Shown one piece after another: positions 367 through 31,664 of a DNA stretch of 33,713 nt (positions are counted from its first letter, which is position 1; each line of letters starts with the position of its first letter). A model generated the notes under the pieces. That model searched no databases, had not been told where the DNA came from, and saw only the letters and a program-made list of their open reading frames with translations. A program made the position numbers and the translations under genes. The DNA is from a virus. The stretch lies in IMG/VR virus record IMGVR_UViG_3300035698_008689, positions 1 to 33,713 of that record, one strand, 5' to 3'.

Positions 367-397
367 ATTAAAATAATGTTATATAGATAGCTACCCA

Positions 398-423
398 CTC
401 ATAGTATTTGAAAATATTATGAG
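398..423 (+). promoter_or_regulatory. Leader hairpin 1
   Basis: CTCATAGTATT pairs with AATATTATGAG (one G-T wobble) to give an 11-bp stem closed by a 4-nt loop. It lies in the inferred 5' leader of the head operon, between the promoter and the first gene. Confidence 0.55.
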
Positions 424-432
424 TTTATTCCC

Positions 433-481: not shown

Positions 482-847
482 ATGAATTATAAAGAGCGAC
501 TAAATATTTTGTTCGAAGGTACAACTTCCGCTAATTTGGATAAAATTAAAAATAAAAGATTTAATCATGGGCAATGTAAACAAGCTGCAGAGTTTGTAGC
601 AAGTGAAATCCCAGATTTTCATATTAAGAAATTAAACAAGGTCATGTTTGGTTTAGTAGACACTCATTATATTGCGACTGATGGCCAACTAGTTGCAGAT
701 TTAACTTTCCCTGATTATTATAAGCAATTGTCAGGTCGAAAGGATATTGATAAAAGTAAATTACAATGGTTCGATAGAAATAAGAATAATGTTATTTTTA
801 ATGGTCAAGATTATTTGGCTAATATTTATGAGAAGGTGAGATTATGA
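482..847 (+). CDS. Small protein with possible Cys-His-Asp (papain/transglutaminase-like) triad and MNYKERLN N-terminus
   Basis: This encodes 121 aa. The frame extends up to an ATG at 419, but ATG 482 is chosen: GGTGA lies at 469-473, the upstream codons encode the leader hairpins as low-complexity sequence, and the protein then starts MNYKERLN, exactly like the gene at 17213. C32 (HGQCKQAAEF), H62 (DTHYIATDG) and D73 (LVADLT) have the order and spacing of a papain-like or transglutaminase-like active site. The HY..DG..vaDlT pattern resembles small cysteine-peptidase-fold proteins, but I cannot name a family. It overlaps the prohead protease gene by 4 nt, so it is probably co-expressed with head assembly genes and may be packaged in the head. 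The enzymatic role is inference. Confidence 0.75.
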   Translation: MNYKERLNILFEGTTSANLDKIKNKRFNHGQCKQAAEFVASEIPDFHIKKLNKVMFGLVDTHYIATDGQLVADLTFPDYYKQLSGRKDIDKSKLQWFDRNKNNVIFNGQDYLANIYEKVRL

Positions 848-1491
848 AAGAAATACATAATTTAAACGAAGTATGGACACCAGCAGAAAAGCCTTTTGTT
901 TTTCAAGAAAGTGTCGATCCCAAGAGTGGAAAAAGACAATTCTTAATGAATGGGATAATGCTTCCGTTTGGAAAGATTAGTAGGAATGGAGTATTATATA
1001 ACAAAGAAAGTGTAAAAGAAAAATGTGGAAACTTAGTAGGCAGACCACTTATGTATAATCATATCACAGAAGGACAATCATTACCACTTGGGCACTTCAC
1101 AAAAAGTTGGTGTGATGAAAACTTTTGGTATTATGAAGCAGATGTAGATCCTCAAGAAACCGTTTACATAAGCAAGATGGAAAGAGGGGATGTAAGACAT
1201 GTTTCTATACAGCTTAAACCATCGAAGGCAATAGAAAGAGTGTCAGAAGATAACAAATCTTATATCGAAGCATTTGTTGAGGACATAATTGAAGGAAGTG
1301 TAGTACCGGCTCCTGGTTTCTTAGATACTACAATTAAATTCGCAGAAGCATTCAATAAAGAAGACATAAACACAAAAACCGCAGATGGCGCAATTGCACC
1401 AAGCAAAATTGTTGATAAAGAACTAGAAGATGAAGTTGAAGAACTTCTGAAAAATGTAGACGAAGAGGAATTGGAAGAGATTTTTAAATAA
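844..1491 (+). CDS. Prohead (capsid maturation) protease
   Basis: This 215-aa protein fits phage prohead proteases, which digest the scaffold and trim head proteins before DNA packaging. The candidate catalytic residues lie in the usual contexts: H73 in PLMYNHITEG, S121 in DVRHVSIQLKPS, and the following segment EDIIEGSVVPAPG (E150), which is very typical of the family. The C-terminal 40 residues are acidic and probably outside the catalytic fold. It starts at ATG 844 behind AAGGTGAG and overlaps the previous gene by 4 nt. A scaffold gene and the major capsid gene follow, the classic protease-scaffold-capsid order. Family assignment is confident; the exact catalytic set is inferred from motif position. 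Confidence 0.88.
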   Translation: MKEIHNLNEVWTPAEKPFVFQESVDPKSGKRQFLMNGIMLPFGKISRNGVLYNKESVKEKCGNLVGRPLMYNHITEGQSLPLGHFTKSWCDENFWYYEADVDPQETVYISKMERGDVRHVSIQLKPSKAIERVSEDNKSYIEAFVEDIIEGSVVPAPGFLDTTIKFAEAFNKEDINTKTADGAIAPSKIVDKELEDEVEELLKNVDEEELEEIFK

Positions 1492-1539: not shown

Positions 1540-2136
1540 ATGAGTAAAACACACAAAGAGAAATTGATTAATATCATAAACGAGAATAAAGCATTGAAGG
1601 AGGAGCTTGAAATGACTAAGAAAGAGCAAAACGTTGCAGATCAAGATGTCCAAACAAAGCCAAAAGACGTTGAGGTAAAACCGGTTGATGGTGCAGACGA
1701 TCAACCTGACGCAGCTTCACAAGACGATTTAGCGGCAAAACAAGGAAACACAAAGATTGAGCAAGCAGACGCTGAAGAAGAGCCAGAGGACGAAAAGGAT
1801 GAGAAGCCTATTGAAGAATCTGAAGAACCGGAAGAGCCTGAAATTGAAGAAGAAGAACTTGAAGAAGAAGAACCAGAAGAAATGACAGAAGAAGTTTCTG
1901 ACATTGAAAAAATGGTTTCTATTATCGAAGAAATGAAAGCAGCTTTCGATGCATTGAAATCAAGAGTTGACAACATGGATAATAAGGAATCTGTTGACGG
2001 TGAAGAAGAGGAAGAAGAAGAACCTGTACCACCAGTAACAGAGAGCATTAAATTCAGCCAAGTTTTCAAAGAAGGAACAACTAAAGTAGATAATACTAAA
2101 GCTTTTAAAAAATTAGCAAGAAAAATCATATATTAA
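1540..2136 (+). CDS. Acidic capsid scaffolding protein
   Basis: This 198-aa protein sits between protease and major capsid genes, where the scaffold is normally encoded. ATG 1540 is chosen over the in-frame GTG at 1531 because that GTG is part of the GGTGA site itself. The N-terminus (about 1-30) is helical and coiled-coil-like. Residues about 65-120 are dominated by Glu, Asp, Pro and Ser. A second helical stretch follows at about 125-150, and the C-terminus is basic (KAFKKLARKIIY), as in scaffolds whose last helix binds the capsid protein. An in-frame ATG at 1612 has its own GGAGG, so a shorter form may be made. The role is assigned from position and composition, because scaffold sequences diverge quickly. 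Confidence 0.75.
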   Translation: MSKTHKEKLINIINENKALKEELEMTKKEQNVADQDVQTKPKDVEVKPVDGADDQPDAASQDDLAAKQGNTKIEQADAEEEPEDEKDEKPIEESEEPEEPEIEEEELEEEEPEEMTEEVSDIEKMVSIIEEMKAAFDALKSRVDNMDNKESVDGEEEEEEEPVPPVTESIKFSQVFKEGTTKVDNTKAFKKLARKIIY

Positions 2137-2151
2137 TGAGGTGAACATGAA

Positions 2152-3162
2152 ATGAGCAAATTCAAAGTAACACAGTATAAAGAACCTTCATTTTCCAGAT
2201 TAGCACCACAAGGATCCAATGACTTATCCTCACAAGTAGGAAAGGCATTATACGAATCTTTTAAAGCTAAGGAAAACGGAGCAGCATTATTAAGAGAGAA
2301 GTTTGGAGAAACATTCCAAGAAGACATTAACACAACCACAGGTGCTGGAGCATATACAACTATGTTATCAACAGTTTTATACAGCGCAGCAATCGAAAAC
2401 ATTTCAGACATTATGGAATTAGTTTTTATTAACGAAGACCTAATGAACGGAAGCGGTTTCGGAGCTTACCAAATACCAAGATTACTACCAACAGTAGCTG
2501 TTGAAGTTTCTGAAGGAAAAGTAATTAACTATTTTGACGAAGGTGTAGATTCAGTAACAGTAACATCTAGAAAAGTTGTAGCTGGAACAGCAATCACATG
2601 GGAAATCATCAAAAGAGGTATGAATGACTTTGTAAGATTTGTTTTACAAAACGCAGCTGATGCAGTAACAAGAAAGATTGCAACAGACATTGTAAACGGA
2701 TTAGCAGCAGGTACAGGAAATACACAGACCGGTGGAACATCATACGATAATATTATCGACGCTAGAGCAAAAGTTCAAGGTGCAACATACACAAACGGAA
2801 CACCATACGGATTTTTAGTTTCACACTTAGTTCTAAACACAGATGAAATGGCAGTTTTACAAAAAACAACCGATTGGAAGAACCACGTTTATTATGCTAA
2901 CGCTAGACCTGGACAAGATTTCGTTGTAGACAGACCAGCATTAATGTTCGGAAACGCAAAGATTGTAGAAACACCATTCTTAACAGCAGCTAAATATCTT
3001 GTATTAGATTGTAAGAAAGCAGCAATGTTAGTTAAGGAATCAGACATGGAAACTTTCGAAGGTGCATTACCAGGAAGACCATACGACAGAGAAATCGTTG
3101 CTTTAATGAGTTACGTATTAGCAGTAATTTATCCAAAAGCAATTTGTATTGGGACAGCTTAA
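2152..3162 (+). CDS. Major capsid protein (HK97 fold)
   Basis: This 336-aa protein is called the major capsid protein from its place after protease and scaffold, its length and its layout. The N-terminal ~60 residues look helical. A long central part carries the alternating strands and helices of an HK97-type shell protein (DIMELVFINEDLM, VTSRKVVAGTAITWE, FVRFVLQNAADAVTRKIATD). A late segment, ADGxP-like in position (LMFGNAKIVETPF), precedes LVLDCKKAAMLVKESD. ATG 2152 lies 7 nt after GAGGTGA. An ATG at 2147 is only 2 nt from that site and reads ATG AAA TGA. Codon choice is uniform (ACA, GCA, GGA), as in the sheath and tube genes, which fits high expression. A hairpin with a T-tract follows. 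Confidence 0.85.
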   Translation: MSKFKVTQYKEPSFSRLAPQGSNDLSSQVGKALYESFKAKENGAALLREKFGETFQEDINTTTGAGAYTTMLSTVLYSAAIENISDIMELVFINEDLMNGSGFGAYQIPRLLPTVAVEVSEGKVINYFDEGVDSVTVTSRKVVAGTAITWEIIKRGMNDFVRFVLQNAADAVTRKIATDIVNGLAAGTGNTQTGGTSYDNIIDARAKVQGATYTNGTPYGFLVSHLVLNTDEMAVLQKTTDWKNHVYYANARPGQDFVVDRPALMFGNAKIVETPFLTAAKYLVLDCKKAAMLVKESDMETFEGALPGRPYDREIVALMSYVLAVIYPKAICIGTA

Positions 3163-17212: not shown

Positions 17213-17707
17213 ATGAATTATAAAGAAAGATTGAATAAAATGTACGAAAAAGTAGTTTATACAAAGTTCGGAATGCCTGAAGACGAAGCATCTAAAAACG
17301 AAAAAGAAGCAAAAACATTCGTTGATAAAATTAATAAATTCGCAGCAAAGAAAATCACAGAAATAAATAATTGGTTGATTGATAGGATATCAGAACAACA
17401 AGATAACGAGATTTTTAGGAATTTAAGTTCAGATAAATCCTCTGGTCAATATTATTCTTATGAGCCTATAGACTCAACTGAAGGTATATTTTTCGTAGAT
17501 GTTAATTTCTTAATCAAAAAAAGAGGAAATGTTATTGGTAAGCTTGGTAAATTCCCACGAATAAGAGATGCTATGGCGAAGAAAATAAAATTGCCAGTGC
17601 CATATTATGATTTAAGAAGAGAAAAAGTAGAGGAAGGTAACCACAGAGTTGCAGTCTCGAAAGAAATAGGATTAAAGAGTGTACCTGTGAGAATATTTTG
17701 GAAGTGA
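17213..17707 (+). CDS. ParB-like domain protein with MNYKERLN N-terminus
   Basis: This encodes 164 aa. It starts with MNYKERLN, identical to the gene at 482. Residues about 15-75 are charged and helical. The C-terminal part ends with EEGNHRVAVSKEIGLKSVPV, the conserved box of ParB/sulfiredoxin-like domains (usually DGxHR), including GNHR at 142-145. PVPYYDLRREKV before it fits the same fold. ParB-like domains bind CTP or act as nucleases or kinases in different families, so activity cannot be assigned. Its place between spike and tip genes is unusual. The shared N-terminus suggests delivery into the particle; that is a hypothesis. Confidence 0.72.
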   Translation: MNYKERLNKMYEKVVYTKFGMPEDEASKNEKEAKTFVDKINKFAAKKITEINNWLIDRISEQQDNEIFRNLSSDKSSGQYYSYEPIDSTEGIFFVDVNFLIKKRGNVIGKLGKFPRIRDAMAKKIKLPVPYYDLRREKVEEGNHRVAVSKEIGLKSVPVRIFWK

Positions 17708-28732: not shown

Positions 28733-30616
28733 ATGAAAGTATATGGACCACTTGATATGCAAAAGAGCGAGATCGAAAATTTCGTCATTGATGTAGGAAC
28801 AGCATTCCCAGGGACACCAACCTTTGGGCAAATGTTCACACGAACCGATTTAAGCAAAATTTATTGGTATAATGGTGCAGCATGGACAGAATTAGCAGCA
28901 GCTTCTGGATCAGTTGCATTCACAGACCTTACAGACGTTCCTGCTAGTTATTCAGGACAAGGAACTAATATTGTCAGAGTAAACTCAGGAGCAAGTGCAT
29001 TAGAATTTTTATCAACAGTACCTATCTTAAATGGTGGTACTGGACAAACAACAGCAAACACAGCATTAAATGCTTTCTTACCAACACAAGGTGGAAACGC
29101 TGGTAAAGTATTACAAACCGATGCAACTAACACTAGTTGGGAAACCCCAGCATCTACAGGCACAGAATCTTTAGGATTATATGAGGATTTATCAGCTGGG
29201 GATTTAGTACAAATTGTTGATGATGCTGGTGTTGCAAAGTATGCAAAGATTAAATGTGGTGCTAACAAATTTTCAAAGGGGAACACATTTACTGGATCAG
29301 GCACAGCAACCGACACTCAAATTGTTTCATTATCATCTACTAAGATAATATATTCATACGATGTATCAAGTTCATGTTATGCAGTATGTGGAACTATTTC
29401 AGGTGAGACTATTACTTTCGGATCAGAGACTTCAATTGATCCAACTGTAAATTTTCTTGCAGACATGGAAAAACTAGACTCAACTCATGTGATTATTGCT
29501 TATTCAGATGCATCAACGTTATATCCAAGAGTCGTGATTGTTGATAATACAACAGGAACTACGATTGTTCCCGGAACTGTAGTTTCGCTTAATACTGCAA
29601 GTTGTCATAATTCAATATTTGTTAGTAGGATTGACGACACTCATTTCCTTGCAGTATATTCAAAATCCAATGGCGGGAATTATGATATTGTTGGAAGGAG
29701 ATGTACAGTCTCTGGAACCACAATCACTCAAGGAGCAGAACAAGCATTAGCGACTAATGTTACAGAATATATAACAGCAGTAACTGTATTAGACAGTTCA
29801 ACATTTAGTATCTCTTATAATGATTCTGGATATTACACAGCAGCTGGTTCTATCAGTGGAGACACCCTAACACTAGGAGCTGGAGTTTTAACATTAATTA
29901 ATAATTATAAGAAACCTATTAGAATATCTGACTCAAGTTATATGTTGGCAGATGATGATGGATGGCGTTCCAATTTAGCAGGAATCAGAACTGAATTATA
30001 CTCTGTATCAGGTACAACTACAACTTTACAATCTGTCAATCGTAGATTAATGATGATGATATACACTAGTACGAATGAAAATATCGAATATGTGTCAGGG
30101 ACAAGTGTTGGTGAAACAGGCGAAGTTATGTTATTATATATCGGTTCTGTTTCAGATAACGCGATTATCGTTCATGCAAAAGCTAATGGAAACTCGGTGA
30201 ACATCGGTTCTGTATATTCTATCGGAAATGCATCAGCGAGCTATGTATCTGAATGTGATATCAATTATTTAGATAATGGATTTGCTATTAGTTCTATACG
30301 AACAAATAGTAACGGCGTAATAACGATGATGAAATATAACGACGGATTCTCATGTATTGGAGCGATGTCAGAAGCTGGAACTGCAGGACAAACAAAATCT
30401 GCTAATTTATTGTTTACAACAAATGATGAACAGACTGGATTAACCCCAGGACAAAGTTATTATATAGATGAAGACGGTGGATTATCAGCGACACAAGAAG
30501 GAAAAAATGATAATAATCAAGAATATTATAGTACAACACCAGCAGGAATCGCAATAAGCAGCACAAAGTTATTATTGAATAATACAATAAATAAAAACAA
30601 TGTTGACAGATGGTGA
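28733..30616 (+). CDS. Tail fibre with probable beta-propeller domain
   Basis: This encodes 627 aa. The N-terminal ~55 residues are the shared anchor (IENFVIDVGTAFPGTPTFG, YWYNGAAWTEL). Then come common fibre modules: LTDVPASYSGQGTNIVRV and ILNGGTGQTTANTALNAF, with VLQTDATNTSWETP. Residues about 195-545 contain repeats of about 45-50 residues (TKIIYSYDVSSSCYAV, THVIIAYSDASTLYPRVVIV, THFLAVYSKSNGGNYDIVG, STFSISYNDSGYYTAAG) with a strand-turn-strand character that suggests a beta-propeller. The C-terminus (GLTPGQSYYIDEDGGLS, PAGIAISSTKLLL) is a frequent fibre ending and differs from the knob of the two preceding genes. It may bind a different receptor. It has its own promoter. Confidence 0.75.
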   Translation: MKVYGPLDMQKSEIENFVIDVGTAFPGTPTFGQMFTRTDLSKIYWYNGAAWTELAAASGSVAFTDLTDVPASYSGQGTNIVRVNSGASALEFLSTVPILNGGTGQTTANTALNAFLPTQGGNAGKVLQTDATNTSWETPASTGTESLGLYEDLSAGDLVQIVDDAGVAKYAKIKCGANKFSKGNTFTGSGTATDTQIVSLSSTKIIYSYDVSSSCYAVCGTISGETITFGSETSIDPTVNFLADMEKLDSTHVIIAYSDASTLYPRVVIVDNTTGTTIVPGTVVSLNTASCHNSIFVSRIDDTHFLAVYSKSNGGNYDIVGRRCTVSGTTITQGAEQALATNVTEYITAVTVLDSSTFSISYNDSGYYTAAGSISGDTLTLGAGVLTLINNYKKPIRISDSSYMLADDDGWRSNLAGIRTELYSVSGTTTTLQSVNRRLMMMIYTSTNENIEYVSGTSVGETGEVMLLYIGSVSDNAIIVHAKANGNSVNIGSVYSIGNASASYVSECDINYLDNGFAISSIRTNSNGVITMMKYNDGFSCIGAMSEAGTAGQTKSANLLFTTNDEQTGLTPGQSYYIDEDGGLSATQEGKNDNNQEYYSTTPAGIAISSTKLLLNNTINKNNVDRW

Positions 30617-30620
30617 ATTT

Positions 30621-31664
30621 ATGACAGGACAAATAGGTATAGTTCAAATATTAAAGGATCTCACGTATCCATTACATGCAAATGATATTAGTAAATTAAA
30701 AACTGATATTGTTAATCTTCAAACTAAGTTGTCGATAGAAGAAAACGAAACCGATTCATTATCTTCTTCAAAAGAAGAACTGGAAGATAAATTGAATAAA
30801 TTAATATCAGATTCTGACACTGTCGAAGATGAAGCAAAAGATCAAATAGATTTTCTTAAAATTGAAATCATACGTTATACTAATATCATCGAAGAAAAAG
30901 AATTGATGATCGATAGTATGACAAACGAAATAGAAGTTTTTAATTCCGACGTTATGAGATTACAACGAGCAATCAAAGATTGTCCTGATCTAAACGATCC
31001 CGTTGAACAAAAACTAATTAATAAATATCCAAAACAAAACACTACTTACAATAGAAAAGAAACCGATCGTGAATATGATATCGATGTTAGAAATTTTCTT
31101 GCGATGTATGATGATTTTAAAGTTCCTACATTCACTGGAAAAAACTACGATGAGATTGCACTAAAGTCTTGTTTATGGGTTCAAAAAAATATAGAGTATA
31201 AGACTGATGGGTCACCCGATTCTTACAAGACCGGAGAATATTGGGCGTATCCGTATCAAACAATGTATCATAAATACGGCGATTGCGAAGATGGCGCAAT
31301 ATTGTTAGCATGTATAATGTTAAAGAGTGGTATTCCTTATTATAGAGTTAGAATGGCGTGTGGTTCTGTATTTGGTGGAGGACATGCTTATTGTTGTTAC
31401 GCTAGAGAATTAGACGATGAGTTCATCGTTCTTGATTGGTGTTACTGGCCAAAAGAAATTCCAATAAACGATAGACTATTACACAAAGAAGAACAAAACT
31501 ATTCAGATGTAACTAGAAATTTTTATGTTTGGTTTAGTTTTGATTTAAAACACAGTTACGGACAGATGCTGACGATAAATGCAGCAACAAAAAGCAGAAA
31601 GAAAGCAAATAAAATATTAAAGAAAATTAAATTTAAACCAATTAATTTCGATGATAAAGTATGA
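30621..31664 (+). CDS. Coiled-coil transglutaminase-like cysteine peptidase (candidate lysis enzyme)
   Basis: This encodes 347 aa. ATG 30621 lies 4 nt after GGTGA; an upstream in-frame ATG at 30600 is inside the fibre gene. Residues about 22-118 form a long coiled coil (LKTDIVNLQTKLSIEENE, KEELEDKLNKLISDSD). The C-terminal domain has the transglutaminase-like order Cys-His-Asp: C222 in YGDCEDGAILLACIM, H255 in GGGHAYCCYA and D272 in FIVLDWCYWP. This superfamily includes the pseudomurein endoisopeptidases PeiW/PeiP of methanogen viruses, but no pseudomurein-binding repeats are visible here, so the substrate is unknown. The two membrane proteins that follow suggest lysis; a tail-associated role in entry is also possible. 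Confidence 0.78.
   Translation: MTGQIGIVQILKDLTYPLHANDISKLKTDIVNLQTKLSIEENETDSLSSSKEELEDKLNKLISDSDTVEDEAKDQIDFLKIEIIRYTNIIEEKELMIDSMTNEIEVFNSDVMRLQRAIKDCPDLNDPVEQKLINKYPKQNTTYNRKETDREYDIDVRNFLAMYDDFKVPTFTGKNYDEIALKSCLWVQKNIEYKTDGSPDSYKTGEYWAYPYQTMYHKYGDCEDGAILLACIMLKSGIPYYRVRMACGSVFGGGHAYCCYARELDDEFIVLDWCYWPKEIPINDRLLHKEEQNYSDVTRNFYVWFSFDLKHSYGQMLTINAATKSRKKANKILKKIKFKPINFDDKV

Follow-up and report, generated by a model that had tools for sequence, protein, structure and literature searches.

This locus raises the question why two proteins, one encoded among the head genes and one among the tail genes of the same virus, should begin with the same eight residues, MNYKERLN (we refer to them as the 482 and the 17213 protein, after the positions of their start codons). 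The window, i.e. the whole stretch of 33,713 nucleotides that was analysed, is an IMG/VR record (33.7 kb) that represents a fragment of a contractile-tailed virus, whose gene set includes a protease, scaffold, HK97-fold capsid protein, sheath, tube, tape measure, hub and spike, next to PAAR, gp25, baseplate J and fibre genes (Table 1). The octamer, which the sequence-only reading had proposed as a virion-targeting tag, was confirmed at both N-termini: a degenerate DNA pattern matches these two sites in the window and no third, and since it found no match in 100 dinucleotide-preserving shuffles of the window, the sharing is beyond chance. It is among the three longest peptides common to any pair of window proteins, the other two being each shared by a pair of tail-fibre-like or repeat proteins. 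The same pattern found one further match in IMG/VR (L005). It belongs to an unrelated phage and falls within the C-terminus of an apparent scaffold, encoded between the genes for portal and capsid; by our own rough estimate a collection this large should yield about one match by chance. We rejected this match as a true leader, because it is internal to the scaffold-like protein and does not exceed the chance level.

The 482 protein starts at the ATG at 482, with a Shine-Dalgarno-like GGTGAT at 469-474 to which another in-frame ATG, at 476, is too near; the 17213 protein starts immediately after the stop of the preceding gene, with the ATG at 17213. The 24 bases that encode the octamer differ at four positions between the two genes, and all four differences are silent (P = 0.00065 in a model of four random substitutions over codons 2-8), which points to selection acting on the peptide sequence of the leader. 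The earlier statement that the two proteins differ entirely after the octamer proved too strong, as the two proteins are still alike at residues 9-12 (ILFE / KMYE), and the likeness reaches a Glu at residue 12 in both.

Table 1. Positions of the features under discussion, in the window unless another contig is named
Feature	Position	Strand	Remarks
Accessory protein, 121 aa	482..847	+	immediately precedes the prohead protease gene; no family match; missing from G001
Leader of the 482 protein, MNYKERLNILFE (residues 1-12)	482..517	+	possible cut after E12 (LFE/GTT)
Prohead protease, Peptidase_S78-like	844..1491	+	family match below cut-off
EDINT, C-terminal to the protease domain	1360..1374	+	predicted self-processing site
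Scaffold protein, acidic	1540..2136	+	ATG at 1540; between protease and capsid protein
Scaffold N-terminus MSKTHKEKLINIINE	1540..1584	+	leader-like
Scaffold C-terminal VFKEGTT	2062..2082	+	VFxE conserved in G001; EGTT found behind the 482 leader, too
Major capsid protein, HK97 fold	2152..3162	+	
EDINT, ahead of the HK97 fold	2320..2334	+	predicted capsid maturation site
ParB/sulfiredoxin-like protein, 164 aa	17213..17707	+	flanked by spike (gpV-like) and PAAR genes
Leader of the 17213 protein, MNYKERLNKMYE (residues 1-12)	17213..17248	+	
Homologue of the 17213 protein, 175 aa	L018 6847-7374		36% identical
Candidate protease-substrate peptides			MNYKERLNILFEGTTSAN, FGETFQEDINTTT, VFKEGTTKVD

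Relatives of the virus were found by scanning with the gp25-like protein, and comprise G001 (48.7 kb), G002 (a second contig with the same match values as G001 over the shared part) and the fragments L009, L017 and L018. Single-protein scans of IMG/VR with the capsid protein, the 482 protein, the 17213 protein and the sheath yielded no relatives, and neither did a scan of the GTDB genomes with the capsid protein alone; a two-row capsid alignment retrieved G001 and no other record in IMG/VR, and nothing in the genomes, and no convincing match came from tblastn of phage records, for which the queries were the capsid protein, the 482 and 17213 proteins and the L018 homologue. G001 is syntenic with the window (capsid protein 74%, sheath 67% and protease 60% identical) and has no homologue of the 482 or the 17213 protein, so that the two genes must be regarded as accessory. 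The only homologue of the 17213 protein that was recovered, on L018, sits elsewhere in the tail operon and starts with MRYTERLNRLMETALL. Its leader, MRYTERLNRLME, is related to the other two and keeps E12; it is conserved at the protein level, with different codons. The identity between the two homologues is 7/12 in the leader, 6/28 in the stretch that follows, where a five-residue indel lies behind residue 17, and 34/72 in the ParB-like domain, and the leader is therefore a conserved island ahead of a variable linker.

The sequence-only reading had also noted a looser version of the tag, HKEKLIN, at the start of the scaffold. It is better written MSKTHKEKLINIINE, and the likeness stands for the 482 leader and is weak for that of 17213; the scaffold of G001 starts with MNAKEKLINILEE, which is nearer to the tag than the window scaffold. 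We ranked the first 20 residues of the 146 proteins of the window, G001 and L018 against the leaders. With the three leaders as joint query the tagged proteins rank 1-3, followed by the scaffolds of G001 (4) and the window (5). When the 482 leader is the only query, no non-tagged N-terminus ranks above the two scaffolds, an outcome that was obtained for 1 of 141 control queries with other N-termini, where the two scaffolds are homologous and hence not independent. The 17213 leader alone places the scaffolds at ranks 1 (tied) and 9, and the L018 leader at ranks 7 and 32, the scaffold of the L018 virus itself not being on the contig; the shuffle P values for the scaffolds alone are 0.015 and 0.043. 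The resemblance to the scaffold is thus clear for the 482 leader, weak for the 17213 leader and absent for the L018 leader.

The order protease-scaffold-capsid in the window equals that of T4 (portal-67-68-protease-scaffold-capsid). Each of the two proteomes, that of the window and that of G001, has just two occurrences of the motif E[DG][IT][NTS]T, one in the capsid protein, just before the HK97 fold, and one in the protease, behind the catalytic part. Both window proteins have it as EDINT and both G001 proteins as KEDITTTTG, and because such co-variation is expected of a substrate and its enzyme, this shared private motif is probably the processing site. The leaders end in LFE/GTT (482), MYE/KVV (17213) and LME/TAL (L018), with E12 in 3/3, and the sites at E12 have the Glu of the EDI[NT]T motif without its remaining residues. 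Guided by T4, phiKZ, SPN3US and P1, we would guess that the protease cuts the leaders after E12: the proteases of the first three cleave after Glu (PMC5694885) and the P1 capsid protein is cleaved after E120 (PMC9024508). The G001 protease (L011 10133-11293) has an insertion between the catalytic part and its FMKEDITT motif and a longer C-terminus, both of which are absent from the window protease.

Given the block conserved in the L018 homologue, the accessory nature of the genes, the likeness to the scaffold and the terminal Glu, a T4-like capsid-targeting leader on exchangeable accessory cargo is the best reading, to which we assign a probability of about 55%. The first ~12 residues would then work like the signal of the T4 internal proteins and imitate the helix with which the virus's own scaffold begins. 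The tagged proteins would join the scaffold core during prohead assembly, the prohead protease would probably cut after Glu12, scaffold and leader would be lost together, and the mature protein would stay in the head and exit with the DNA. The cargo would consist of the products of exchangeable accessory genes, the ParB-like protein and the small 482 protein, for which we infer incorporation, cleavage and injection. The complete scenario, in which a tailed archaeal virus uses a scaffold-mimicking leader, removed by the protease, to load exchangeable accessory proteins, the ParB-like one included, and to deliver them to archaeal cells, is more tentative and falls somewhat short of an even chance. 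Against the capsid-targeting reading speak the tail operons in which the ParB-like gene lies in both viruses, the mismatch of the E12 site to EDI[NT]T, the uneven likeness to the scaffold across the leaders and the recovery of a single homologue.

Proteins that are packaged in the head and injected are well known in T4, P1 and the giant phages; within the open-licence literature no paper was found that joins an archaeal virus with capsid targeting. In T4 the internal proteins IPI-III carry the capsid-targeting sequence MKTYQEFIAE, which, like the window leaders, is a short N-terminal peptide on unrelated proteins with a terminal Glu, in a virus with the same protease-scaffold-capsid order; it also resembles the scaffold N-terminus, as the 482 leader does clearly and the 17213 leader weakly. 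The differences are that the T4 signal and the window leaders have no obvious sequence identity, that the window cargo is unrelated, that the window protease is weakly like a known family, and that packaging is a prediction for the window proteins. In P1, the N-terminus of DarB sends a reporter to the head (PMC9024508), and DarB/DdrB would resemble the window proteins in the N-terminal head targeting of accessory proteins, in the presence of a ParB-superfamily head protein and in a capsid protein that is cut after Glu, whereas the P1 signal takes 10-30 residues on a 250-kDa protein and the window leader, on small proteins of one domain each, ~12. SPN3US gp53 and gp54 share 15 identical N-terminal residues (PMC5694885) and a Glu cleavage motif and are otherwise much diverged; they are recognised paralogues, unlike the 482 and 17213 proteins. 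If the capsid-targeting reading is true, a 12-residue label would expose cargo genes from sequence alone, by a screen for N-termini that imitate the start of the scaffold. A control in T4 suggests that such a screen could generalise: with the IPII/IPIII signal as query, the 76 T4 proteins were headed by IPII, IPIII, IPI and the scaffold gp22, in this order, and with the divergent IPI signal as query gp22 was not found by the ranking.

The model of the 17213 protein (pLDDT 67) consists of a long helix (residues 3-19) and a C-terminal domain, and looks like a ParB/sulfiredoxin fold, the top structural matches being ParB, Noc and sulfiredoxin chains (E 0.04, Z ≤4.5). The L018 homologue scored 16.6 bits against the DdrB-like ParB profile PF18763, below the cut-off of 27.6, and matched phrog_723 ParB with an E of 0.0018; the 17213 protein itself gave no ParB match in profile searches. 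DdrB-like ParB domains have been reported to adjoin virion genes (PMC5512222) and DdrB is present in P1 heads (PMC9024508). Both chains (164 and 175 aa) have one recognisable domain each, below the at least two enzymatic domains per chain that define phage polyvalent proteins. The spike-PAAR interval is an insertion hot spot, with a different accessory gene per virus, or none: the ParB-like gene (window 17213-17707), a gene for a 101-aa protein (L012 10840-11142), one for a CheY-like receiver (L018 9240-9653), and none (L017 1624-1639).

This location suits the idea of a leader that attaches its proteins to the tail (tube lumen, hub or spike), which would then carry them as cargo: the ParB-like gene has spike and PAAR as its neighbours in the window, and the Dit-like and hub genes in L018, and the spike-PAAR interval holds differing accessory genes in the relatives. 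The 482 gene, however, is part of the head operon, beside the protease, and the leaders resemble the scaffold and not a tail protein, so that we consider docking on the tail unlikely. The proposed virion-targeting tag is thus upheld in part: a targeting leader is the best reading, and with both ParB-like copies in tail operons its destination may be the tail.

Rather improbable is that the tagged proteins share a longer, homologous helical domain at the N-terminus, of which the leader is the beginning and which acts as an intracellular binding module without packaging. The remainders of the 482 and 17213 proteins do align marginally better than shuffles (P = 0.044) and the 17213 model has one long helix there (residues 3-19), whereas such likeness is missing between the 482 remainder and the L018 homologue (P = 0.69) and the conservation of the ParB homologues drops sharply past residue 12, with the indel following behind residue 17. 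That the tagged proteins are assembly factors like T4 gp67/gp68, consumed and not delivered, and bind the scaffold or portal by way of the leader, we regard as quite improbable: the 482 gene does occupy the place of T4 genes 67/68 and two G001 proteins encoded just upstream of the protease have tag-like peptides, internal or C-terminal, but the tagged genes are evolutionarily dispensable, being absent from G001, unlike those of core assembly proteins, and a ParB-like domain suits an injected protein better. Coincidence, or a DNA/RNA element common to the start codons, for which 15 identical bases around these codons could be adduced, is very improbable and largely refuted by the lack of shuffle matches, the silent-only divergence downstream and the conservation of the L018 leader at the protein level with other codons.

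The tag-like peptides of the small G001 proteins upstream of the protease (ChaB-like and phrog_6439; L011 9126-9701 and 9769-9957) are not N-terminal: KMKEKLDKLYQ (P = 0.006) and, at a C-terminus, SYKNKLNSLYKE (0/2000 shuffles as good). Profile and sequence searches detected no relatives of the 482 protein and gave no support for a papain-like Cys-His-Asp reading; a CiaD-like Pfam match to its leader (E 0.0043, below the cut-off) was attributed to the chance similarity of a short helix, and a single-sequence structure model (pLDDT 41) was too poor for use. The 5' leader of the 482 gene contains two hairpins (window 397-424 and 433-452; -29.5 kcal/mol, z -4.6), the second with a GC-rich stem and a cUUCGg tetraloop in a genome of 34% GC; a search of Rfam, hairpins included, gave no match, and they are a possible regulatory element.

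The virus is probably an undescribed, tailed, archaeal one. An archaeal host, not proven, is made likely by the combination of an ERCC4-type nuclease and an SPT5-like KOW protein, both encoded in the window, with the match of the protease to a Nitrososphaera provirus, its sole matching phage record (E 0.03), and matches of baseplate J to haloarchaeal viruses, next to which staphylococcal viruses were matched as well. A reading of the last window protein as primase large subunit was not confirmed. The tail-fibre genes end with a gene (30600-31664) for a protein with a transglutaminase-like domain (DUF553) after a coiled coil, which possibly has a role in entry through the cell envelope.
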